Assembly: GCF_023243045.1 (NCBI RefSeq)
Contig: NZ_JALKFX010000031.1
Coordinates: forward strand, 1-63,356
Direction: 5' to 3'
Source of the DNA: Frankia sp. AgB32
GTDB taxonomy: Bacteria; Actinomycetota; Actinomycetes; Frankiales; Frankiaceae
Length of the DNA: 63,356 bases
The position numbers and the translations under genes were made by a program. Below the pieces are notes generated by a model that was not told the DNA's origin, made no database searches, and saw only the letters and a program-made list of their open reading frames with translations. This document shows, piece after piece, positions 1,964-18,099 of this stretch (the first letter of the stretch is position 1; every line of letters begins with the position of its first letter).

Positions 1964-3400
1964 ATGACTCAGGTTCCGTGCAGCGCCAGCGAGCTGCGCA
2001 CCCTGTTCCTGTTCGAGAAGCTGGCCGACGACCAGCTGGCCTGGCTGTGCGAGCGTGGGCACGTCGAGCAGATGCGGCCCGGCCCGGTCTACACCGAGGG
2101 TGATCCGGCGGAGTGCTTCTACGTGCTCATCGAGGGCGCGGTGGTGATGTCGGCCCGGGTCGGCGCGGACGACGTCGAGGTGCTGCGCACCGACCAGCGC
2201 GGCGTCTACGCCGGCGCGTGGCACGCCTATCTCGGCGACCGGGTCCCCCAGCTCTACAAGAACTCGCTGCGGGTGACCGAGCTCAGTCGCTTCTTCGTTC
2301 TCGGCGCCGAGGACGTCGCGATGATGATGCGCGAGTGGTTCCCGATGGCCCTGCACCTGCTCGAAGGCCTGTTCTTCGGCATGCAGAGCACCCAGCAGGT
2401 CGTCGGCCAGCGGGAACGCCTGCTCGCGCTGGGTTCGCTGTCCGCAGGGCTGACCCACGAGCTGAACAACCCGGCCGCCGCGGCCGTGCGGGCCACCGCC
2501 GCGCTGCGCGAACGGGTCGCCGGCATGCGCCACAAGCTCGGCATGATCGCGTCCGGCCCGTACGAGCGTCCGGAGCTGGAATCCCTCGTCCGCCTGCAGG
2601 AGGAGGCGGTGGAGCGGGTCGCCAAGGCGCCGACGCTCAGTCCGATGGAGGCGACGGACCGCGAGGACACCCTCGGCGACTGGCTGGACGAGCGGGAGAT
2701 CGGCGACGCGTGGGACATCGCGCCGATCTTCGTCCAGGCCGGCTTCGACGTCGACTGGCTCGAGCACGTGGCCGCCTCGGTGCCCCCGAGCGTGCTCGGC
2801 GGCGCGCTGCGCTGGCTGACGTACACGGTCGAGAGCGAGATGCTGATGCGGGAGATCGAGGACTCGACCAGCCGCATCTCCTCGTTGGTCACCGCAGCCA
2901 AGCAGTACTCGCAGATGGACCGGGCGCCCTACCAGACCGTCGACATCCACGAGCTGCTCGACAGCACTCTGATCATGCTCGGCCGCAAGATCGGCGATGA
3001 TGTCGACATCCGGCGGGACTACGACCGGTCGCTGCCGCCGATCCCGGCCTACGCCGCGGAGCTCAACCAGGTCTGGACGAACCTCATCGACAACGCGGTG
3101 TCCGCGATGGCCCACCGGGGAGTCCTCTCGGTGCGCACGTTCGCCGACCACGACAGCCTCATCGTCGAGATCGGCGACACCGGGCCGGGTATCCCCGCGG
3201 AGATCCAGGGACGGATCTTCGAACCGTTCTTCACGACGAAGGCGGTCGGCGAGGGCACCGGGCTCGGCCTGGACATCTCGTGGCGGATCGTCGTGAAGAA
3301 GCACCACGGCGACCTGCGCGTCGAGTCGGCTCCCGGCAACACCCGGTTCCAGGTCAGGCTTCCGTTCGTCGCGCCGCGTGAGGTCACGCTACCGGGCTGA
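1964..3400 (+). CDS. Histidine kinase with N-terminal cyclic-nucleotide-binding-like domain
   Basis: The 478-residue protein is given the ATG at 1964 because GGGAG lies about 7 bases upstream; an in-frame GTG at 1940 is a weaker option. Residues about 10-135 match a CRP/CNB-type sensor fold (EGDPAECFYVLIEGAV). A His-containing dimerisation box SLSAGLTHELNNP puts the phospho-His at H165. The C-terminal third is a GHKL ATPase with N box (LIDNAVSAM), DTGPGIP and GTGLGLD. No membrane segment is visible, so this is a cytosolic sensor. It probably phosphorylates the receiver domain of the preceding flavoprotein (same strand, close spacing). The 3' end overlaps the convergent SDR gene by 17 bases. 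The ligand of the CNB-like domain cannot be told from sequence. Confidence 0.85.
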   Translation: MTQVPCSASELRTLFLFEKLADDQLAWLCERGHVEQMRPGPVYTEGDPAECFYVLIEGAVVMSARVGADDVEVLRTDQRGVYAGAWHAYLGDRVPQLYKNSLRVTELSRFFVLGAEDVAMMMREWFPMALHLLEGLFFGMQSTQQVVGQRERLLALGSLSAGLTHELNNPAAAAVRATAALRERVAGMRHKLGMIASGPYERPELESLVRLQEEAVERVAKAPTLSPMEATDREDTLGDWLDEREIGDAWDIAPIFVQAGFDVDWLEHVAASVPPSVLGGALRWLTYTVESEMLMREIEDSTSRISSLVTAAKQYSQMDRAPYQTVDIHELLDSTLIMLGRKIGDDVDIRRDYDRSLPPIPAYAAELNQVWTNLIDNAVSAMAHRGVLSVRTFADHDSLIVEIGDTGPGIPAEIQGRIFEPFFTTKAVGEGTGLGLDISWRIVVKKHHGDLRVESAPGNTRFQVRLPFVAPREVTLPG

Positions 3401-8272: not shown

Positions 8273-8809
8273 ATGAACAGCACCGCAATGCGCCGTGGCC
8301 TGGTTGTTGCCTTCGGCGGCCTGGCGCTCGCCGGCGTCGTGGCCGTGGGACAGCCCGCCAGCGCCGCAAGCCCTGTGAACACGTCCGGGCCGGTCCCGCC
8401 CGCGGCGGTCTCCGCGGTCGGCGCCGCCAGCGCTGCCCAGACGTCGGCGACCGCCCGCAACCAGGGCGGCGGCGTGCGGGCGTCGCACCTCGACGGCGTC
8501 TGCAACACGTACAGCAGCGGATACGGCGACCTCTGCCTGTGGTATCTGCAGAACTACACCGGCAGCCACGCCGACTTCTACTTCGGCGACGGCAACCTGA
8601 ACGACAACTACTTCAACAGCCCGGGCGCCGGCCAGGGTCAGCGGGTGGGCAACAACTCGGAGTCGGACTGGAACTACGACCGGCACCTGACCGCCCGTGT
8701 CTTCACCGGGGTGAACTACACCGGTGTCGCCGGTGATATCGCGCCGTACACCGGCGGAAACTTCAACTCCACCTTCCGCAACAATGTCGAGTCGTTCTAC
8801 TGGGTCTGA
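8273..8809 (+). CDS. Secreted peptidase inhibitor, family I36-like (beta/gamma-crystallin fold)
   Basis: The 178-residue protein begins at ATG 8273 with AAGGAG at 8262-8267. It has a Sec signal peptide: charged start, hydrophobic core LVVAFGGLALAGVVAV, and a likely cut after PASA (about residue 32). The mature C-terminal part has two cysteines bracketing YSSGYGDLC and aromatic/Gly/Asn-rich crystallin-like strands ending VESFYWV. This matches the Streptomyces metalloproteinase-inhibitor (SMPI, MEROPS I36) type. It lies in the same direction as a secreted S8 protease 1.1 kb downstream, so it may act on that protease or on foreign ones; family I36 is classically against metalloproteases, so the target is uncertain. 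Confidence 0.75.
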   Translation: MNSTAMRRGLVVAFGGLALAGVVAVGQPASAASPVNTSGPVPPAAVSAVGAASAAQTSATARNQGGGVRASHLDGVCNTYSSGYGDLCLWYLQNYTGSHADFYFGDGNLNDNYFNSPGAGQGQRVGNNSESDWNYDRHLTARVFTGVNYTGVAGDIAPYTGGNFNSTFRNNVESFYWV

Positions 8810-8872
8810 TCCCCGCCCCTACGACGACTGACCGTCCCACACCGCTCCACCGGTAACGGGCCGACCTGCCGG

Positions 8873-8901
8873 CCGGTTCCCGCCCTTGCGGCGGGAACCG
8901 G
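8873..8901. terminator. Stem-loop downstream of the inhibitor gene
   Basis: A perfect 12-bp stem (8873-8884 with 8890-8901) with a 5-base loop starts 63 bases after the inhibitor stop. Outer bases 8839-8846 and 8904-8911 can also pair. This is a good factor-independent-like terminator separating the inhibitor from the gene at 8971. Confidence 0.6.
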
Positions 8902-8970
8902 TCGCGGTGTGTCCGCGCGTCTCGCGGAGCCTCGGTGGCGGGCGGATCGGCAGTACGTAAAGGACTTCCA

Positions 8971-9909
8971 ATGCCATCTCGGATGGGTCGCGGACACCGG
9001 CGCGACGGATCGCGCCGCCGGACCAGGACGGCACGCTCCAGCGCCGCCGTGAGGTGGGCACTGGCAGCGGCGCTGACCGTGCCCGCGGCGGTCGGCGCCG
9101 GATGCGGCGGGGCGACCTCGAACCCCGCCACAGGCGTCGCGCCGGCCCTGACCGACGCGTCCCACCTGCGGCTCCCGCTGGACCGCTACCTGCTCACCCC
9201 GCACGACGCGGACCTGGTGGCCCGCGCCCACCGCGTCCTGCTCCGCCGCTGCGAACAGCGCTTCGGGATCACCGGGCCGCCCGAGCCCCCGGCGACGGCC
9301 GGGCCGCGAACGCTGAACGAGCGCCGCTACGGCATCACCGACCGCGCGCTGGCCGCCACCGCCGGTTTCCGGGTGTCGGCCAACGGCCCTGTCACGGTGC
9401 CGAAACCGACCGAGCCGGCGGACCCCCGCACGTTGGACGTGCTCAGCGGCGAGGGCCGCCGGGTCGTCGACGGCCAGCCCGTTCCGCCGGGTGGCTGCTC
9501 CGGCGAGGCCAAGCGGCGCCTGGGTGCCGGCGCGCCGGCCGGTGCCGACCGGTTCCTGGCCGAGCGACTCAGCCGGGACAGCTACTTCCGCGCCGAGAGC
9601 GACCGGCGGGTGCAGGCCGCGATGCGTGCCTGGTCGATCTGCATGCAAGAACACGGATTCACCTATCCCACCCCGCTGGCCGCCGCCGCCGATCCGCGCT
9701 TCCGCGCCGGCCCGGTGACGCCCACCGAGATCGCCACAGCGACGACCGACATCGACTGCAAGGCGCGGGCCAACCTGGTCGGCGTCTGGTCCACCCTCGA
9801 AGCCGACCTGCAGCGCCCCGCGATCGCCACTCACCGCGACGCGCTGGACACGCTGCTGCGGGCGAACGACGCCGAGCTGCGCGTCGTCCGCGGCCTCGAC
9901 CTGCGCTGA
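8971..9909 (+). CDS. Exported protein with conserved-looking cysteines, unknown function
   Basis: The 312-residue protein is given the ATG at 8971, which has AAAGGA at 8959-8964. The N-terminus has a run of Arg, a hydrophobic stretch ALAAALTVPAAVGAG and a Cys directly after, resembling a lipobox but with Gly at -3, so anchoring as a lipoprotein is possible. Further cysteines occur in LLRRCEQRFG, PGGCSGEAK, WSICMQEHGF and DIDCKARAN. The C-terminal half is predicted helical. It is followed within 22 bases by the S8 protease, suggesting one operon. No family recognised. Confidence 0.7.
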   Translation: MPSRMGRGHRRDGSRRRTRTARSSAAVRWALAAALTVPAAVGAGCGGATSNPATGVAPALTDASHLRLPLDRYLLTPHDADLVARAHRVLLRRCEQRFGITGPPEPPATAGPRTLNERRYGITDRALAATAGFRVSANGPVTVPKPTEPADPRTLDVLSGEGRRVVDGQPVPPGGCSGEAKRRLGAGAPAGADRFLAERLSRDSYFRAESDRRVQAAMRAWSICMQEHGFTYPTPLAAAADPRFRAGPVTPTEIATATTDIDCKARANLVGVWSTLEADLQRPAIATHRDALDTLLRANDAELRVVRGLDLR

Positions 9910-9931: not shown

Positions 9932-11305
<1,374 letters not shown>

Positions 11306-11321: not shown

Positions 11322-11543
11322 TCAGGCGGCCGGCCGCTTCGCGCGAAAGCGGAAGCTGCCGGCCTCCCGGTCCACGGTGACCTGCTCGAACCCGACCGCG
11401 GCGAGCCGGTCGGGCAGGCGGTCGGGATCGACCACGACCATGGTGTCCCGCAGGTGCAGAAGCCGAAAGACAGCGCTTGCCACGCCGTCGCTGCCCGCGA
11501 ACACCCCGCCCGGCCGCAGGACACGGAACGCCTGGACTGGAGC
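11322..11543 (-). pseudogene. C-terminal remnant of a SAM-dependent methyltransferase
   Basis: The minus-strand frame ends at 11322 and reads AFRVLRPGGVFAGSD, then LHLRDTMVVVDPDRL, VGFEQVTVDREAG and FRFRAKRPAA. This is the typical last 70 residues of a class I methyltransferase (LRPGG before strand 5, then the C-terminal strands). The SAM-binding half is missing: upstream of 11543 the homology stops, GC drops, and another gene is read in the opposite direction. It is read as a gene decapitated by insertion or deletion at about 11545, the probable left edge of foreign DNA. Confidence 0.6.
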
Positions 11544-12706
11544 TTTTCCTGCCTGACCCTGGCCGGGCTTCCTCCCAGGGTTTCCTCGTTACTCACCTGG
11601 AAGCCACGGCTGCGACCATCGCTCCAGTACTCCGCGCGGTGGCCCGACGCCGCGGCACAGTCGACATCGATACCGCGCCGGAGGCACTTCTACCTGCCGG
11701 GGTCAGTGTTCACACGACTGGAAAGCGTTACACACTGGCCTTCATGACGCGCGGTGCCGCTCGACTCGCCGACCCGGATGAAGCGGCGCAGGTCCCGCAC
11801 TGGTCGCCTGTCGAGCGATGGCTGTGGTTGCTGGCCTCGCGGTCTGCGCATTCGGACTATCCGCCCGATCCCGACGACGCCGATGCGCTCCTCGCTGGTC
11901 TGGTGAGGCTCTCCGCGGACTGGCGCGCTCTGATCAACCGGGACGGTGCCGCCTTTCTCGGACTGCGCCGAGACCTCGGCGCCAGCGACCCCTATTTCGG
12001 GTTCGCGAAGGTTTACATGCACACGGTGTACCTCGATGCCCTGCTCCTGGGTATGACCCAGCGGCTGAGCATCGACCAGTTGACTGACAGCGCTGCTCGA
12101 TCTTTCCAAAGCCGTGATCTTGCCAGCCACCTCATGGAGCTGGAGATCCGGGCAGCGCACTTCCGAGCGATGTACTGGCTGCGGGACACCGGCGACCATG
12201 GGCATGCCACCCAGATTCTCGCCGCCTACCAAGGCCAGTATGATCTGGACGCTCGGTTCCACCTGGTGGTCAACGAGATTTCAGAGCTGGCCCGGGTCGT
12301 CCAGGCCCGGGGAAACGAGCAGGTGAGCGCGGCCCTGGGCGTCATCACAGTGCTCGGGCTCCCGATCGGCGTCACGCTGGGCATCGTCCAGATCATCGGC
12401 GCGAATGGCGTGGTTCCGGTTTCGGTGGCGCTGGGCGCCTCATTTTCGGCTACAGCGGTGATTCTTCATGTCCACGAAGTTCGGCCGCTTCCTGGCCCGC
12501 CAGCTGGCGCGCCGCCTGCCCTGACCTCCGCCGTAACGCCTGCTCTCGTTGCGCCAAGCCAGCCGGCCTGGCCACCCAATCATGGCGGCCTGCCCGCTCC
12601 GTTGGCCCGGAGATGGGGCTCGACACTTACGGGAGCCAGAGCGGCGCTCGGCCCGGCCCCAACACCAGTGTGGGTTAGCCTGGACTCACGGCGAAAGATG
12701 TCGTGA
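11477..12706 (+). CDS. Hypothetical protein with two C-terminal membrane helices (start uncertain)
   Basis: The open frame gives up to 409 residues, but its first 22 codons are antisense to the methyltransferase remnant and are unlikely to be real. An in-frame GTG at 11639 is a later candidate, and the true N-terminus may be lost at the junction. The body is soluble and helical (SHLMELEIRAAHFRAMYW), followed by two hydrophobic segments (ALGVITVLGLPIGVTLGIV; VVPVSVALGASFSATAVIL) separated by a short NG-containing turn. A long helix plus two C-terminal helices recalls the CorA-like layout, but no GMN motif is seen. Codon bias is weaker than in core genes, consistent with transfer. Function unknown. 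Confidence 0.55.
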   Translation: MPRRRCPRTPRPAAGHGTPGLELFLPDPGRASSQGFLVTHLEATAATIAPVLRAVARRRGTVDIDTAPEALLPAGVSVHTTGKRYTLAFMTRGAARLADPDEAAQVPHWSPVERWLWLLASRSAHSDYPPDPDDADALLAGLVRLSADWRALINRDGAAFLGLRRDLGASDPYFGFAKVYMHTVYLDALLLGMTQRLSIDQLTDSAARSFQSRDLASHLMELEIRAAHFRAMYWLRDTGDHGHATQILAAYQGQYDLDARFHLVVNEISELARVVQARGNEQVSAALGVITVLGLPIGVTLGIVQIIGANGVVPVSVALGASFSATAVILHVHEVRPLPGPPAGAPPALTSAVTPALVAPSQPAWPPNHGGLPAPLARRWGSTLTGARAALGPAPTPVWVSLDSRRKMS

Positions 12707-12943
12707 CAAAAATGCCCACCCGACAGAGTCGGGCATAACCAGAGTTGGGTGGAGCTACGAGGATGGACATTGAACCCCGATCTTGACCTCTACCTGCGGG
12801 AATGGCGTCGGCGGAGCTTGAGCTAATACTAAGAGTGGCTGTTCGTCACGTTCGGCGACGGACGGCCGTGGTGTGGGATGGGTTCGGGTGACCTGGAACG
12901 CGCCCGTGGGGGTCTTCCTCGCGGGCGCGTTCCGCGTTCGGGG
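12707..12943. other. Convergent intergenic region with two stem-loops
   Basis: A short stem with CCCGAC/GTCGGG arms lies just after the stop at 12706 (about 12723-12737). A much stronger perfect 12-bp inverted repeat occupies 12895-12906 and 12922-12933 (15-base loop). No coding frame is supported. The second stem sits 11 bases beyond the end of the minus-strand gene at 12944 and is its probable terminator. Confidence 0.55.
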
Positions 12944-13198
12944 TTACTTCTGGTCGTTGGCTGCGCGGGTGGCTGGTGTGTGCGCGGTGATGGCTTTCGG
13001 AGCTTCTTCGGATGCTGGGATGCCATCGTCGGCGGTGTCCACGCAGCCGCCTTGGTAGAGCCATCGCACCCGCACAGCGCCGGGAATCATGTGGTGTAGT
13101 CGTCTGGCAATGTCGATGAGTTCTCGTCCTCCGCCGAATCCGTCGTCGACGATGAGGCGAGATGACGCTTTATCGGTGTAGTTCACGATCAGGATCAC
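12944..13198 (-). CDS. Small hypothetical protein (element-encoded)
   Basis: The frame from GTG 13198 gives 84 residues. The GTG overlaps the TGA of the upstream gene by four bases (GTGA), a translational-coupling arrangement that decides the start. The sequence begins with a hydrophobic strand (ILIVNYTDKASSRLIVDDG), has a helix ELIDIARRLHHMIPG, a single Cys in YQGGCVD, and an Ala-rich tail. GC is lower than in core genes. No family recognised. Confidence 0.55.
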   Translation of the reverse strand: MILIVNYTDKASSRLIVDDGFGGGRELIDIARRLHHMIPGAVRVRWLYQGGCVDTADDGIPASEEAPKAITAHTPATRAANDQK

Positions 13199-13512
13199 GT
13201 CGTTTCCTGGTGGCCCTGATCGTCGTTTTGCTGTGTCGCGTGGGCGGCGACGTAGAGCTTGAAGGTAAGTGTGGCTTTTGTCTTGTTGGCAGTGACCCCG
13301 GTGAGTCGCGCGTCGGCAGGAATGAGGAGAGAAATGGCGGAGGTGAGATCCGACGCTCGAATGCCATTGTCGACGTCGAGCGTGGCCGCGTTGTCGCGGT
13401 AGCGGGCAGCGGTTCCCGGCATTGACCGAAGACGGATGTCTTTGGGCTCCCATGGTTCCGGAGCCTCGTGATTCGCTGCTGTGATCGGTGTGGCGCCCAT
13501 ACGTAGATTCAC
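13195..13512 (-). CDS. Small hypothetical protein (element-encoded)
   Basis: The 105-residue frame starts at GTG 13512 with AGGAG four bases upstream; ATG 13500 is an alternative with poor spacing. It contains DNGIRASDLTSAISLLIP, ARLTGVTANKTKATLTFKLY and a His/Gln-rich C-terminus. It overlaps the next small gene by four bases, so the two are expressed together. Both lie downstream of, and on the same strand as, the XRE regulator, 227 bases away. Function unknown; the coupling argues that the two products act together. Confidence 0.55.
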   Translation of the reverse strand: MNLRMGATPITAANHEAPEPWEPKDIRLRSMPGTAARYRDNAATLDVDNGIRASDLTSAISLLIPADARLTGVTANKTKATLTFKLYVAAHATQQNDDQGHQETT

Positions 13513-13739
13513 CCGCTCCTGATCTTCCAGGTGTCGCCGTTCGGAATTGATATGTCCGGGAGCGGCTGCCCGGGTCCGGGAATCGAGGGGATTGAGCGAG
13601 GGAGCCCCTCGCGTCGACCGAACCCGGGCGCCTGTGAAGAAATCTAGAGTGTACGGATGAACGACGCGAGACGCGGCGCATGGCAGTTGCCGGTCCGCTC
13701 GCCTTTGGACTACCACGTAGCGTGGTAGTCGCCTGCTTC

Positions 13740-14984
13740 CTAGTCGGTCAGCTCCATGAAATCGACAAGGGAACGGAGTTCCTGGCTCAACGGGCGCTTG
13801 CGGCTCCGCAGGATCGCCGACAGGACGTCTTTTCCCTTGCGCTGATGCCGGAGCCATTCGGGCGAGTTCTGCCGCAGGTGAACGAGAACATCCGCCGCGT
13901 CGCGATGGTCACGAAGCGCGGCATGGGCGGCTGCGACGTCGAGGAGATGCCGACTGAGGTTGTCGGACCGGTAGCGGTCCGACCGTGGCGCGGGTATGCG
14001 ATCCGCAAGCCGTAGGACACCCCGCGCGTCACCCATGATCATCAGGGATTCGGCGCGTTTCATGGCCACGACGGCCGGGCCAAACGTCGTCAGGTACTGG
14101 TGATAGCCGTCCGGTGGTCGGGCCATCGATACGCGGGTGGCTGCTGTCTCGGCGAGTGACAGGAATTCGTCGGAGGAATCACGGCGGTTGTCGCGTATTG
14201 CGGCGGCCGAACCGCGCAGCAGCAGCCAACCCCATGCCGAAAGCTCCGCGTCGCTGGCAGTGGACATGCGTGGCTCGATAGCCTCGGCGGTGTTCCGGGC
14301 AAGATTCTCGGCGTCGCCGAACCGGCCTTGCCGGATGAACAGCCATGCCTGAGAAATAGCGCCCGATGCTGCCGTAAGGCTGTCTCCCGCGCTGGTCGCG
14401 TCCTGTATCGCGTCGCGAATCGCGGCATAGGCCAAATCGTATTGGCGCACCTGCGTGAGGAACCAGCCGGCAAGTTGGTAGATTTCGGCGCGTAGCCGCA
14501 GCAGCGGGGATCGTGTTTCGACGGTGGCCCGGTCGATCAACTGGTGGCTGTCGCGAACCATGCGGGGGAGCATCATCGCGACCGCGTCGAAGTCATCGGC
14601 ATGGTAAAGGCGGACCGCTTCGGACAGCGCGGCCCGTAGGTCAGCTTCCTGAACGTCGCCAGACGTTTCCGCGCCGAAGGTCACGATTCCACGGATGCCG
14701 ACGACCGGAGTCAATACCTGACGCAGCGGAAGGAGATTCAGCTTGTCTCCCTCTTCCGCATCCGGCACCGGACCGGGGGAAGTAGAGCCGAAAAGTGATG
14801 AAGTCTCGACATCGAGCGCCCGAGCCAGCGCGTGTAGCGTTTCGATCCGAGCACTTCCGCCCTGTTCGATCTTACGGACGGTGGAAACACTGAGTTCGGC
14901 CGTGTGGGCGAGAGCTTCCTGAGTGAGGCCGCGCCGATGACGCAGGTTCTGGAGATGGATTCCCGGTGCCAGCTCGCCTGTCAT
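13740..14984 (-). CDS. XRE-family regulator with TPR-like C-terminal region
   Basis: The 414-residue protein is given the ATG at 14984 (AGAGGG upstream). Residues about 8-62 form a Cro/C1 helix-turn-helix (LRHRRGLTQEALAHTAELSV, TVRKIEQGG, LHALARALDV). The rest is an Ala-rich array of helix pairs (LRLRAEIYQLAGWF, AISQAWLFIRQGRF, DNLSRHLLDVAAAHAALRD) typical of TPR ligand-sensing regions, as in actinomycete signal-responsive XRE proteins. Its upstream DNA (15182-15311) holds an array of GTGCAC palindromes and a large inverted repeat, candidate operator sites. It probably controls its own element, including the two small genes downstream. Codon use is less GC3-biased than core genes. Confidence 0.8.
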   Translation of the reverse strand: MTGELAPGIHLQNLRHRRGLTQEALAHTAELSVSTVRKIEQGGSARIETLHALARALDVETSSLFGSTSPGPVPDAEEGDKLNLLPLRQVLTPVVGIRGIVTFGAETSGDVQEADLRAALSEAVRLYHADDFDAVAMMLPRMVRDSHQLIDRATVETRSPLLRLRAEIYQLAGWFLTQVRQYDLAYAAIRDAIQDATSAGDSLTAASGAISQAWLFIRQGRFGDAENLARNTAEAIEPRMSTASDAELSAWGWLLLRGSAAAIRDNRRDSSDEFLSLAETAATRVSMARPPDGYHQYLTTFGPAVVAMKRAESLMIMGDARGVLRLADRIPAPRSDRYRSDNLSRHLLDVAAAHAALRDHRDAADVLVHLRQNSPEWLRHQRKGKDVLSAILRSRKRPLSQELRSLVDFMELTD

Positions 14985-15533
14985 GACGCCCTCTTCTCGC
15001 CCACGTACGGGGGTCAACTCCAGGATACGGCGACGTGGCGCACAGACCGAGGCTCGCGGAGGCAGCGTGACGAGCGCGCCGAACCCCATTCCGCGTGCTG
15101 CCTCCCGGCGCCCGGCGGAATCGTGATCATGGCTGTCGGGTAGCGCGCGCCCTGGCCGTCGGAGGCTGCCGTCCGGCCGGTGTGCACGCTCCGGTGGCCG
15201 CTGGGCGCCAACGCGCGCAGACGCGCGTGCGCGCGTTGGCGCTGTGCATGCACACCTCGGTGCACACCCCGTGCACGCCGGTTGCAAAGCCCCGTGCACA
15301 CCCTCGTGCACACCGGTCGGCCGTCTGGCAGCGACCTGCCGGGGCACGAACACCCGCAATCACGAATGCCTTTTATCGGAAATCGACTTTCCGCGTTCAA
15401 ACCATGATTTTCGTCCTGCCTTTCAGGGGTGTTCTTCGGTTCGCAGCCATGAGATAATTAGGGTGCGATAGGCGTGTCTTGCCACACGCCGACTCGGGTG
15501 ATCGTCAGTGCAGCTCGTGAGAGTGGGGTGGCT
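14985..15533. other. Structured intergenic region upstream of the XRE regulator
   Basis: No convincing gene is present. The region carries a 15-bp perfect inverted repeat (15205-15242), five GTGCAC hexamers and a GTGCATGCAC decamer between 15182 and 15311, and an AT-rich stretch 15360-15460 with a -10-like GATAAT at 15453-15458. A 7-bp stem (15471-15477 with 15484-15490) follows. Confidence 0.6.
15182..15311. repeat. GTGCAC palindrome array and 15-bp inverted repeat
   Basis: GTGCAC occurs at 15182, 15260, 15271, 15294 and 15306, and GTGCATGCAC at 15244-15253. Between the first two lies a perfect inverted repeat, 15205-15219 with 15228-15242, loop 8 bases. The spacing between hexamers is irregular (11, 23, 12). 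It resembles an operator or iteron cluster, not a CRISPR. Being about 200-330 bases upstream of the XRE start, binding by that regulator, or by a replication protein of the element, is inferred. Confidence 0.7.
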
Positions 15534-15713
15534 ATGACATCTCTGTGGATCTTCGCTGGCCGTTGGGGACATCGGCAGGATGCGTCAATGCGGCACATGC
15601 ACGGCTGTCTGACGCTGCGCGGCAGGCACGTTCTTGCGACCGCTGTCGAACCCGGACGTCAGGCGGTAGCTGTCGTGAAAACCGCCATCACGCGACACGG
15701 TGGATCACCATAG
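15534..15713 (+). CDS. Possible small hypothetical protein
   Basis: A 59-residue frame starts at ATG 15534, preceded by GAGTGGGGTGG. It begins TSLWIFAGRWGHRQD and is rich in His and Arg; a GTG start at 15474 would add 20 residues. Support comes from a possible promoter (GATAAT at 15453) and a perfect 10-bp stem-loop that begins directly after the stop codon. Codon bias is weak, so it may not be a gene. Confidence 0.35.
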   Translation: MTSLWIFAGRWGHRQDASMRHMHGCLTLRGRHVLATAVEPGRQAVAVVKTAITRHGGSP

Positions 15714-15741
15714 CTGTCACGCTATTCACTCAGCGTGACAG
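15714..15741. terminator. Perfect 10-bp stem-loop directly after a short ORF
   Basis: Arms 15714-15723 and 15732-15741 pair perfectly around an 8-base loop (ATTCACTC). The stem begins on the base after the TAG at 15711-15713. There is no T-run. Confidence 0.5.
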
Positions 15742-15752
15742 TAGCGGGATGT

Positions 15753-15788
15753 CCGCGACCAGGTAGCGGCATCGCTGTCTGGTCGCGG
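15753..15788. repeat. Second perfect 10-bp inverted repeat
   Basis: Arms 15753-15762 and 15779-15788 are perfectly complementary; the 16-base loop can itself form a 4-bp stem (AGCG/CGCT). It lies 11 bases after the previous stem-loop. It may be a terminator pair, a protein-binding site or part of the recombination region of the element. Confidence 0.6.
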
Positions 15789-15927
15789 GACCCTGCGGCC
15801 TGTTTGAGCTGGGCAAATGTCTGAGGGTAGCCGTAGCGGCCTTGGGTCGCTGCCGCGCGTGCCCGCGTAGGGCGGGGGGCGACGGGCCGGGGCGCCGCTA
15901 CTGCCACCCGGTCGGTTTCGACGTTTC

Positions 15928-16152
15928 TTGGATGATCCGGATCACGCGAGAGAAACGGGTATCGGCTCGTTGGACGCGGCACGCCGTGAAAAAGTTCAAG
16001 TCCTCGCCGAACATCAGCCAGAAATCGACTGCGACGACTTCGCAGCCGCGATAACAGCATGGGTTGACATCCTCATCCACGAAAAAGCGGACGGCAAAAT
16101 GGACGCTCCCGCCCCGCCCCGAAAGAAAGAAGGGCGAGCGAGGAAACGGTAA
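15928..16152 (+). CDS. Small hypothetical protein upstream of the recombinase
   Basis: A 74-residue frame from TTG 15928 reads DDPDHARETGIGSLDAARRE, then EIDCDDFAAAITAWVDILIH and a very basic tail (PPRKKEGRARKR). No good ribosome site is visible, so the start is unsure. It ends 75 bases before the serine recombinase on the same strand, a common position for small element genes. The basic tail could bind DNA. Function unknown. Confidence 0.45.
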   Translation: MDDPDHARETGIGSLDAARREKVQVLAEHQPEIDCDDFAAAITAWVDILIHEKADGKMDAPAPPRKKEGRARKR

Positions 16153-16227
16153 TCAAAAAGCCGAATTTCGTAGGGTCGCGCTGTGCTACCATGCCCGCGA
16201 CGATCACCACGGAAATGAGGTACACCC

Positions 16228-18072
16228 ATGCCCCCGAAATATATCGCGGGATCTCCTGTGCCAGTGCCGGCATCTACCGCCCGTCGACTACGTGCCGTTT
16301 TCTACCTTCGGGTGTCGACGAAATCCCAGGTCCGCACCGACTATGATCCGGAAGGCATCTCGATTCCTGCGCAGCGGGTCGCGTGCGGGGCGAAAGCCGA
16401 GGCATCGAATGCCGACATGGTCGGTGAGTATGTCGAGCCGGGCGTGTCCGCGCACAAGAACCTGGAACGCCGCGAGGCTTTCCGGGCGATGGTCAACCGC
16501 ATTGAGCGGGACCGCGACGTCGATATCGTGATCGTCTATCAACTCAGCCGTTTCGCGCGGGACCGGTACGAAGACGCCGCGTTCACGCTGCGACTGCGGA
16601 ACCTCGGTGTTCTTCTCGTGTCCGCAACGGAGAACATTGACGAGACACCGGCCGGTGAGCTTCTCCACGGGATGCTGGCCGTGATCAACCAGTATCAGTC
16701 CGCTGCCAGCGGGAAAGATATTTCCTACAAGATGCGGCAGAAAGCCGCGAATGGCGGAACCCCTGGTCTCGCGCCGATCGGCTATCTCAACGTCCGTATC
16801 CGCAGCGACGGGCGGAACATCGCGGACGTGATCCTTGACGAGGACCGGTGGCGACTTGTGCAATGGGCTTTCGAGCGGTTCGCGACCGGTGCGTGGACGG
16901 TGGACAGCCTGACCGGTGAACTCAACCATCGCGGCCTGACGAACCGCGCCAGCGGGAAACGCCCGAAACGTCCCCTGCAATCCTCGCATGTGCACAAGAT
17001 GCTGACGAACCGCTACTACGTCGGCATTGTCACCTTCGACAAAGTCGAATATCCGGGCGGCCGGCATCCTACCTTCGTGGCGGAGAAAACGTTCACCAGG
17101 GTGCAGGGAATACTGAAGTCCCGGGCGACCGCCGGCGACAAGCCGAGCAAGCATTTCCATCCACTGAAGGGCAGCCTGTTCTGTGGCCACTGCGGATCGG
17201 CTTTCGGCATCACGAAGGCGACCGGACGGCACGGCGGTACATACCCTTACTTCTACTGCCTTGGCCGGCAGCGCGGAAAATGCAGGCAGCCCTATGTGAT
17301 GATCGACGTCGTGGAGAAACTCGTCGCGGACTGGTGGCGCCGCGTCGAGATCACCTCACGGCAGAAAGCCCGCATTCGTGACATCGTCCTCGACAGCGCG
17401 CAGACCCTCGTGACGAACGGCACCGAACAGGCCGACCGACAGAAACGCCGCATCAACGAGCTGGAAAACGAACGACGGTCATGCCTACGCGCCTACTACA
17501 ACGGCGCCATCGGCGAAGAACTTCTCAAGGAAGAGCAATGGCGGATAGACAGCGACCTTGGCAAGGCACGCGCCATGCTCCATTCCTGCCAAGGGGAATG
17601 GCAGGCGATCGGCGGAATCCTCGACCGGCTGCTGAGCCTCTGCGACGACAGCCACACTCTTTACACCACCGCACCCGCAGTCGTGCAACGCCAACTCAAC
17701 CAAGCCGTTTTCCGGCGCTTCTGGATCATCGACAAGGGGATTCACGGAGCGGATCTGTTTCCCCCACTAGCCCAACTCCTCGGCGACGATCTTGCTGCAC
17801 TGCTGAACCAGGAAACCGAGAATATGATCAAAGCTCAGAACGCCACAGAAGCTCCAGAAAACCCAGACCTACACATCCCCACCAACGAACCGTCTACGTC
17901 CGCCTACGGCGACGACGGGCCACGCCGCGGGCAGACAGAAGCGCCGCTCGGCATCTATCCGAACGGCGCAACGCCTTTCCAGGGACAGAGGGGGGAAGAT
18001 CGTGTTCCGAACTTCACCACTCTCGTGGAGCTGAGGGGATTCGAACCCCTGACCCTCACACTGCCAGTGTGA
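16228..18072 (+). CDS. Large serine recombinase (integrase)
   Basis: The 614-residue frame starts at ATG 16228 with GAGG upstream. It has the resolvase N-terminal catalytic domain (FYLRVSTKSQ, nucleophile Ser30; YQLSRFARDRYEDA), a recombinase DNA-binding domain (GLAPIGYL, LVQWAFERFATGAWT, MLTNRYYVG), a zinc ribbon (LFCGHCG with YFYCLGRQRGKC) and a long coiled coil (about 390-470). This family catalyses site-specific integration and excision of phages and mobile elements. The last codons (ELRGFEPLTLTLPV) are antisense to tRNA-Ala(GGC), and the stop lies inside the tRNA, so the native C-terminus may have been changed by integration. GC and codon bias are lower than in core genes. Confidence 0.9.
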   Translation: MPPKYIAGSPVPVPASTARRLRAVFYLRVSTKSQVRTDYDPEGISIPAQRVACGAKAEASNADMVGEYVEPGVSAHKNLERREAFRAMVNRIERDRDVDIVIVYQLSRFARDRYEDAAFTLRLRNLGVLLVSATENIDETPAGELLHGMLAVINQYQSAASGKDISYKMRQKAANGGTPGLAPIGYLNVRIRSDGRNIADVILDEDRWRLVQWAFERFATGAWTVDSLTGELNHRGLTNRASGKRPKRPLQSSHVHKMLTNRYYVGIVTFDKVEYPGGRHPTFVAEKTFTRVQGILKSRATAGDKPSKHFHPLKGSLFCGHCGSAFGITKATGRHGGTYPYFYCLGRQRGKCRQPYVMIDVVEKLVADWWRRVEITSRQKARIRDIVLDSAQTLVTNGTEQADRQKRRINELENERRSCLRAYYNGAIGEELLKEEQWRIDSDLGKARAMLHSCQGEWQAIGGILDRLLSLCDDSHTLYTTAPAVVQRQLNQAVFRRFWIIDKGIHGADLFPPLAQLLGDDLAALLNQETENMIKAQNATEAPENPDLHIPTNEPSTSAYGDDGPRRGQTEAPLGIYPNGATPFQGQRGEDRVPNFTTLVELRGFEPLTLTLPV

Positions 18073-18099
18073 TGCGCTACCAGACTGCGCCACAGCCCC
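18026..18099 (-). tRNA. tRNA-Ala(GGC)
   Basis: The minus strand folds as a full cloverleaf. The acceptor is GGGGCTG paired with CAGCTCC, with discriminator A. The anticodon loop CTGGCAG gives anticodon GGC, and the T arm has GGGGTTCGAATCCCC. CCA is not encoded. Its 3' end faces the serine recombinase, whose reading frame enters it, marking this as the likely attachment site. A TATAAA-like -10 lies about 13 bases upstream of the 5' end. Confidence 0.92.

Follow-up and report, generated by a model that had tools for sequence, protein, structure and literature searches.

An integrative element in Frankia sp. AgB32 with a large serine recombinase gene that reads into its tRNA-Ala target

The contig NZ_JALKFX010000031.1 of Frankia sp. 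AgB32 (63,356 nt, here called the window) represents all of contig C199 in a draft genome of 6.68 Mb (G000) and encodes a large serine recombinase (LSR, an integrase) whose gene runs into a tRNA-Ala(GGC) gene. This LSR very probably belongs to a compact integrative element of an LSR clade that is dedicated to the 3' ends of tRNA genes, and sometimes of transfer-messenger RNA (tmRNA) genes, and in which integration would swap the tail of the recombinase. Sequence comparison with relatives places the element at window positions 12749-18032 (approximately 5.28 kb) with the core GTGGAGCT at both ends, and the ends and the target are well supported. On the circular form of the element the predicted C-terminus of the LSR is a tail that begins VELRGWTLNPDL and is conserved in part; in the window element it is 25 residues long. 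This reading draws on the element ends, the empty sites in relatives, a 5-bp shift between half-sites, both reading frames of the LSR and the partial conservation of the tail; catalysis and the expression of both LSR forms are presumed.

Element ends and empty sites

The LSR has the domain order of a large serine integrase, with Resolvase (PF00239, 89.8 bits), Recombinase (PF07508, 36.4) and zinc-ribbon (PF13408, 43.8) domains all above cut-off, and matches the integrase family phrog_95 of PHROGs (E 8e-76). Assignment to the cassette chromosome recombinases (Ccr) of staphylococcal cassette chromosome (SCC) elements was rejected, as the NCBIfam models CcrB and CcrC gave 62 and 55.9 bits against a cut-off of 900. 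A close relative of the LSR was not found in the phage and plasmid collections; identity to phage LSRs was 22.6-29.9% among the 30 of 393 matches listed, and none of the 393 reached 80% coverage. The stop codon of the gene lies 48 nt within the antiparallel tRNA-Ala(GGC), the 3' end of which faces the element, as the first-pass annotation of this stretch had noted. The integrated LSR ends in TTLVELRGFEPLTLTLPV, its tail being the tRNA-antisense peptide VELRGFEPLTLTLPV. Elsewhere in this genome the tRNA-Ala(GGC) sequence has tRNA-like matches at 76% and 80% and one 16-nt piece.

The corresponding loci of relatives were retrieved through the right-hand neighbour gene of tRNA-Ala(GGC). The tRNA stands beside this same gene in all 12 other loci of the genus and none has an LSR directly adjoining, with at least 107-150 nt visible in each and more in most (two show just 107 and 121 nt before the contig end). 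The tRNA sequence is identical in all 12 loci, which indicates that the tRNA is restored exactly on integration. The closest relative without an LSR match (G007) has an empty tRNA-Ala site with the gene order S8 peptidase, methyltransferase, AraC-type regulator and tRNA-Ala. The flank of this tRNA-Ala aligns to window positions 12684-12756 with a score of 57, and the runner-up place on the scanned plus strand of the window scores 30. The old tRNA flank has thus been displaced by 5.28 kb, which puts attL at 12749 and attR at 18025. Empty sites in relatives, a displaced flank at the far end and an intact tRNA, the marks of a tRNA-targeting integrative element, are all present at this locus.

The element-side sequence of the left end (the P' half-site) recurs at the left ends of elements in QA3, G012 and G031 and in a remnant in G025. 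The five left ends are unrelated to the left of the core and conserved for approximately 54 nt to its right. The four full elements (window, QA3, G012 and G031) are 5.3-5.5 kb in length and follow the same order: the tail, approximately 0.9 kb holding no gene conserved between the window element and the others, the XRE regulator, a small open reading frame (ORF) and the LSR. Their targets are tRNA-Ala(GGC), tRNA-Ile(GAT) twice and tRNA-Ala(CGC). For the G012 element, inserted at tRNA-Ile, the left flank can be aligned as far as the core with the empty sites of five relatives (scores 77-108 against shuffled maxima of 28-35). Similarly, one attL flank of G011 matches the empty site of G009 with 158 identities in 174 columns (score 266; control flank 24). 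Rightward of the core the two P' ends of G011 agree at 474 of 474 nt, and leftward at 27 of 100; the LSR copies at tRNA-Ile and tRNA-Ala(CGC) are 86.3% identical over 1581 nt, the copy on contig C66 being split over two frames. By these comparisons G011 carries related elements at two target genes within one genome; the stronger reading of one identical element at two tRNAs was withdrawn on account of the divergence of the LSR copies. In G025, an uninterrupted attP-like junction of P and P' lies in frame (L269, contig C117, about position 1488). It follows a degraded LSR frame, has tRNA-Ala(CGC) approximately 1 kb further on and probably marks the join left by an earlier tandem insertion. At G009:C133:16582-16622 there is a 41-nt copy (93%) of the 3' end of tRNA-Ile, approximately 1.9 kb before the intact tRNA-Ile, which suggests another, older insertion at that gene.

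The first-pass annotation had proposed one element, possibly decayed, from about 11545 to 18026. That a single element ends at tRNA-Ala and that integration alters the C-terminus of its integrase are borne out by the empty sites, attL and the circular-form tail, and the empty tRNA-Ala site expected in relatives occurs in G007 with its junction at 12749 and not at 11545. A left edge at 11545 is very improbable. GC content does fall from approximately 0.70-0.73 to 0.61-0.65 across 11.5-18.0 kb, near where that annotation had put the drop, and similarity to G007 does break at 11533, inside a 190-aa ORF of G007 with a Pfam methyltransferase domain. However, the host DNA expected just outside attL sits at 12684-12748, the region 11500-11640 matches that flank at background level (16, against 57 at 12684-12756) and the homologous elements start at the equivalent of 12749. 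The decapitated methyltransferase named at the left edge holds up insofar as the break falls within the G007 methyltransferase ORF, but the 60-aa fragment left in the window has no Pfam match, and the break is approximately 1.2 kb outside attL and so no part of the element. The lower-GC segment 11534-12683 replaces the N-terminus of the methyltransferase and the AraC-type gene of G007, which from sequence appears to be an event separate from the LSR element. A tRNA 3' core repeated at the left edge exists as the 8-bp GTGGAGCT at 12749, but a plain search of the window found no second copy of the 39-nt 3' end of the tRNA (best 23/39, elsewhere, with nothing at attL). Decay of the element is probably wrong, as the layout is kept in three other copies and the XRE gene, tried as a sign of decay, is present in all four elements. 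Even less credible is a resident, non-mobile LSR gene that overlaps the tRNA by chance: no LSR stands beside tRNA-Ala(GGC) in the 12 other loci of the genus, the element ends are found again at other tRNAs and the empty sites contradict it.

Attachment sites, the predicted circular-form tail and the wider clade

The attP and attB sites of LSRs are told apart by a zinc-domain motif that is shifted by 5 bp (PMC3783163, in the part available). The motif GAACCCC is found in P' at 12772-12778, 24-30 nt from the core start, and in the T-arm of the tRNA at 18043-18049, 19-25 nt from the core start and thus 5 bp closer; of the two host halves, only the tRNA side shows the shift. The opposite half of attP has a mirror motif (AAGATCGTGTTC, mirroring GAACCCCGATCTT of P') within the LSR's own codons at 17996-18007, and by hand alignment the symmetry centre falls on the GG of GTGG. 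In an alignment of 54 LSR-tRNA junctions on the T-loop (53 distinct strings, several of them close kin; two attR rows without a recognisable T-loop were dropped) the core letters GTG occur in 54, 52 and 49 of 54. A P motif of the GG-TTCGA type stands 32-38 nt from the T-loop, with each letter in 24-44 of the 54 junctions, and is missing in some groups (Leu-GAG and part of Arg-CCG).

The LSR is predicted to pair attP with a host site that it recognises through one half, the tRNA T-arm (GGATTCGAACCCC) together with the acceptor end, and recombination would take place within GTGG, the central dinucleotide probably being GG at tRNA positions 72/71. The tRNA remains complete, since the element end supplies the same last bases. 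One attP half occupies the last codons of the LSR, and the reading frame consequently continues across the point of crossover. In the circular form, this frame would take its tail from the opposite end of the element (25 residues in the window element and 29 in most relatives); integration would remove that tail, and the C-terminus would then be translated from the host tRNA in antisense. That integration exchanges the tail of the LSR can be read from the sequence itself. With the universal T-arm and acceptor end as host half-site, one LSR lineage could, if this is true, colonise many tRNA and tmRNA genes.

When the element ends are joined in frame, the window LSR reads TTLVELRGWTLNPDLDLYLREWRRRSLS followed by a stop. 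A search pattern built from five P' sites was run on 35 family genomes with the reversed pattern as a control, and gave 13 sites in 10 of the genomes (reversed control 0); the five source sites are among the 13, so eight are new. The LSR frame is open for at least 20 codons at 12 of the 13 sites, with a stop right after codon 29 at eight. Of the alternative frames, one stops by codon 8 at all 13 sites and the other passes 15 codons at four. The ratio of nonsynonymous to synonymous differences (pN/pS) over tail codons 4-12 is 0.20 in the LSR frame, compared with 1.99 and 2.41 in the two alternative frames, and codon 30 is a stop in seven of 11 compared tail rows despite the free variation of codons 20-29; both the ratios and the codon-30 count leave out L265, in which the frame is broken, and L268, a copy of L261.

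The occurrence of such overlaps was surveyed through PF07508 matches (E <= 1e-8) in 148 genomes of the class, a sample that misses LSRs without PF07508 and includes many kin of the window genome. The survey yielded 142 loci, or 134 after eight cut by contig ends were dropped. Forty-one of these 134 LSRs read into an RNA gene (39 tRNA, two tmRNA), and all 39 that enter a tRNA are antiparallel to it: 29 stop at most 200 nt from the tRNA start, seven read 216-525 nt past it and three more than 800 nt past it. Only three of the 134 stop short of a tRNA, at 115-323 nt (one within 150 nt and two more within 350 nt). The first-pass annotation had called an LSR at a tRNA less usual, in agreement with the available parts of two papers. 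Serine recombinases in tRNA genes are called rare by Ghinet and co-authors (PMC3218068), with eight mycobacterial actinomycete integrative and conjugative elements (AICEs) in tRNA-Leu and the phage phiRSM1 as cases, and in mycobacteria six serine attB sites of 29 and a serine phage-inducible chromosomal island lie outside tRNA genes (PMC10654092). PMC10083194 makes no mention of tRNA. The 41 of 134 found here disagree with that description and suggest that, among the Actinomycetes sampled, serine recombinases are not uncommon at tRNAs.

In a FastTree phylogeny of 124 survey LSRs, the tRNA label (tmRNA uncounted) requires 12 changes against 31.9 when shuffled, with none of 500 shuffles as low, though near-copies add to this clustering and long branches leave the deeper joins unsure. 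The clade of the window LSR comprises 20 rows (support 100). Eighteen of them enter tRNAs (Ala, Arg, Leu, Val and Glu), one enters a tmRNA and the remaining row (G039) is cut by a contig end and has a tRNA-like tail. Of 38 open loci, 27 have the LSR frame in phase 0 where it meets the core, five have it in phase 1 and six in phase 2. The two tmRNA (ssrA) 3' ends are entered by L103 (G072, 2998-3372), which belongs to the window LSR's own clade, and L139 (G045, 403-762). The window genome itself encodes an LSR of a different clade that reads through tRNA-Arg(CCG) (L001, G000:C217), as well as a second, broken copy of the window LSR with stop codons, its pieces being 42-70% identical (L122, G000:C111:150366-152254). 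No tRNA was found around the broken copy at 140-160 kb of its contig, the nearest found being tRNA-Ala(CGC) at about 170.1 kb.

Weight of the evidence and relation to known systems

Several observations weigh against a compact element that exchanges the tail of its own LSR. The 8-bp core alone is unremarkable, with seven other 8-bp and two 9-bp matches within 10.5-17.9 kb, and as it would mean little by itself, the case for the ends rests on the flank match and the replicate elements. The left flank of the QA3 element is unmatched in 12 tRNA-Ile loci of relatives. Candidates for attL at 15 distant loci scored 11.5-14.0 against 14.5-16.0 at three known sites, with no clear winner; these 15 were left out of the counts, the sequence of L286 was not used and mutual comparison did not fix the left ends of eight distant loci. 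The other attB half, to the left of the core, is without a mirror motif, and recognition may therefore rest on one half-site. Within the tail, pN/pS over codons 4-19 is 0.48 (1.03 and 1.26 in the other frames), codons 13-19 alone give 1.68, contrary to a coding reading, codons 20-29 vary freely and the window tail stops early, at codon 26 and not 30. QA3 carries, approximately 280 nt from tRNA-Ala and with no LSR there, a gene related to the XRE gene (L076, G003, 8328-9666; 76.6% over 1358 nt), and shorter matches lie near the same tRNA in two more genomes (L077 and L080); this gene may be a remnant of older origin or else resident. The AlphaFold model of the LSR (two rows) has a mean predicted local distance difference test (pLDDT) score of 37, is unusable and was set aside.

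The tail exchange may be a neutral by-product of an attP that merely sits at the 3' end of the LSR gene, with the tail codons kept only as attachment-site DNA, a reading that is plausible without being quite probable. Conservation is strongest inside the half-site (the first 36 nt or so), the later codons described above are relaxed (13-19) or unconstrained (20-29), and the integrated tail differs with each tRNA, so that the LSR must tolerate many tails. Less easily explained as a by-product are the synonymous bias of codons 4-12, which is confined to the LSR frame, the stop that recurs at codon 30 amid freely varying codons, and the 41 of 134 LSRs that read into an RNA gene when three stop within 350 nt before a tRNA. 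A second proposal is a switch, similar in logic to integration-dependent immunity: with the circular tail the enzyme would preferentially integrate or be highly active, and with the tail encoded by the tRNA it would, once integrated, be quiet or partner-dependent. This proposal is tentative and rather doubtful. The tail and its stop are partly conserved, phase 0 prevails at the core, attP sites inside repressor genes are a precedent (PMC8092301, from the part available), and McMurdie and co-authors considered that dsiB of Dehalococcoides is possibly fully functional only on the circle (PMC3146451, likewise in part). Nevertheless, tRNA-encoded tails differ between sites, no ssrA-like tag was seen by eye on the tail ends and 11 of the 38 loci are in the other two phases. 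Today a neutral by-product is at least as likely as regulation by tail swap. It is conceivable, if on the unlikely side, that an LSR clade widespread in actinobacteria employs the product of its own recombination as a switch and that the sequence of the enzyme records whether the element is integrated.

The dsiB gene always overlaps the attachment site in ssrA, without a stop of its own there (McMurdie and co-authors, 2011, PMC3146451, as far as available), and the overlap of an LSR with an RNA gene, noted in 2011, is therefore not new in itself. The Dehalococcoides islands resemble the window element in that the 3' end of a serine recombinase gene overlaps the attachment site in an RNA gene and meets a stop only outside the integrated element. 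They differ in the tmRNA target, insertion in the T-loop, a 20-bp repeat and a six-gene module with a second recombinase, dsiA (same part of PMC3146451). The 3' fragment was there proposed as a requisite for dsiB (PMC3146451), whereas in the window element it is located and its stop mapped. Classification as a Dehalococcoides-type ssrA island was rejected, as the target is tRNA-Ala and no second recombinase was found among the ORFs searched. The Mycobacterium AICEs at tRNA-Leu and phiRSM at tRNA-Ser likewise involve serine recombinases that insert at tRNA genes (PMC3218068 and PMC4471427, in part). The window element differs from the AICEs in that no Rep or TraB was found among its ORFs searched, and the available parts of the two papers do not describe an ORF that runs through the attachment site, the attP of phiRSM lying between two genes (PMC3218068, PMC4471427).

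The A118/LI, Bxb1 and phiC31 integrases share the domain order and the 5-bp shift of the zinc-domain motif between attP and attB (PMC3783163, in part). They differ from the present case, in which a feature common to all tRNAs serves as the host half-site and many tRNAs are used by a single lineage. Integration-dependent immunity of mycobacteriophages was reportedly described by Broussard in 2013. There, too, integration alters the C-terminus of a protein because attP lies inside the gene for that protein; the altered protein is the repressor and the recombinase a tyrosine integrase (PMC8092301, in part), whereas in the window element the integrase itself is altered. Membership in that system was rejected on the attP half within the LSR gene and the serine type of the recombinase. 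No description of the circular-form tail or of the T-arm half-site was found in the literature searched, which mostly excluded subscription papers, and so far as this literature goes, three things are new: the location of the circular tail and of its stop, the T-arm as a half-site together with its 5-bp shift, and the range of tRNA species involved in Actinomycetes. Serine integrases are valued tools for which the determinants of direction and target are still being worked out, and the clade would provide a natural experiment on the extreme C-terminus, with a coding sequence rewritten by its own reaction and a universal tRNA feature as target. The point at which an LSR frame enters a tRNA may serve as a simple finder of attachment sites, and GFEPLT- or GFEPAT-type C-termini of predicted recombinases should be treated with caution, as they can be tRNA antisense.

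Cargo and neighbouring genes

Table 1. Features of the integrative element and its target in the window.
Feature	Position	Strand	Description and basis
attL host (B) half	12684-12748	.	Former tRNA-Ala downstream flank; alignment to G007 (L075); hairpin by eye
Core GTGGAGCT at attL	12749-12756	+	Left element end; identical to 18025-18032
Element (P') half-site	12749-12826	+	Also codons and stop of the predicted circular-form LSR tail (VELRGWTLNPDLDLYLREWRRRSLS, then stop); sequence comparison of element ends
Small cargo ORF	12944-13219	-	Start uncertain; ORF only
Small cargo ORF	13195-13500	-	101 aa; overlaps ORF 12944-13219; ORF only
XRE-family helix-turn-helix regulator	13740-14984	-	414 aa; Pfam HTH_3; phrog_5823, E 9e-122
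Small ORF directly before LSR	15928-16152	+	74 aa; local identity 78%, 65% and 42% in three other elements
LSR (integrase)	16228-18072	+	614 aa in integrated form; Pfam domains, homologs
Element (P) half-site	17996-18026	+	Inside LSR codons (from AAGATCGTGTTC); mirror of P' GAACCCCGATCTT, hand alignment
Core GTGGAGCT at attR	18025-18032	+	tRNA 3' end, right element end; sequence comparison
tRNA-Ala(GGC)	18025-18099	-	Host target; 3' end faces LSR ORF; T-arm as host half-site

The XRE regulator recognised in the first-pass annotation is confirmed by its Pfam and PHROGs matches and is 74-81% identical in the three other elements. The ORF at 12944-13219 has no match in PHROGs, PADLOC or NCBIfam and no BLASTP match in the three other elements, and its overlapping neighbour at 13195-13500 matches a Frankia-40 domain below cut-off (18 bits against 40). 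The 74-aa ORF that directly precedes the LSR has no family match in Pfam, PHROGs, PADLOC or NCBIfam and is, as a guess, a candidate directionality factor. Between the XRE gene and this ORF, the region 15150-15760 contains short GC-rich repeats and sequence that is hairpin-like by eye, and may serve in replication or regulation. The element ORFs searched gave no match to the AICE hallmarks, namely an FtsK/SpoIIIE-type transfer gene and a replication initiator, though short or unusual genes could escape such a search. No PHROG match to phage structural or packaging genes was obtained among the five element ORFs searched, and Pfam and PHROGs gave no second recombinase.

Outside the element, an S8 peptidase with an inhibitor I9 propeptide domain is encoded at 9932-11305 and scores 112.7 bits with the mycosin (type VII secretion) model, for which the cut-off is 278.75. 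The ORF at 11477-12706 has a weak CorA-like PADLOC match (E 1e-7), and exhibits homology at 45-47% identity to proteins in seven other genomes of the 40 searched, together with one short weak match.

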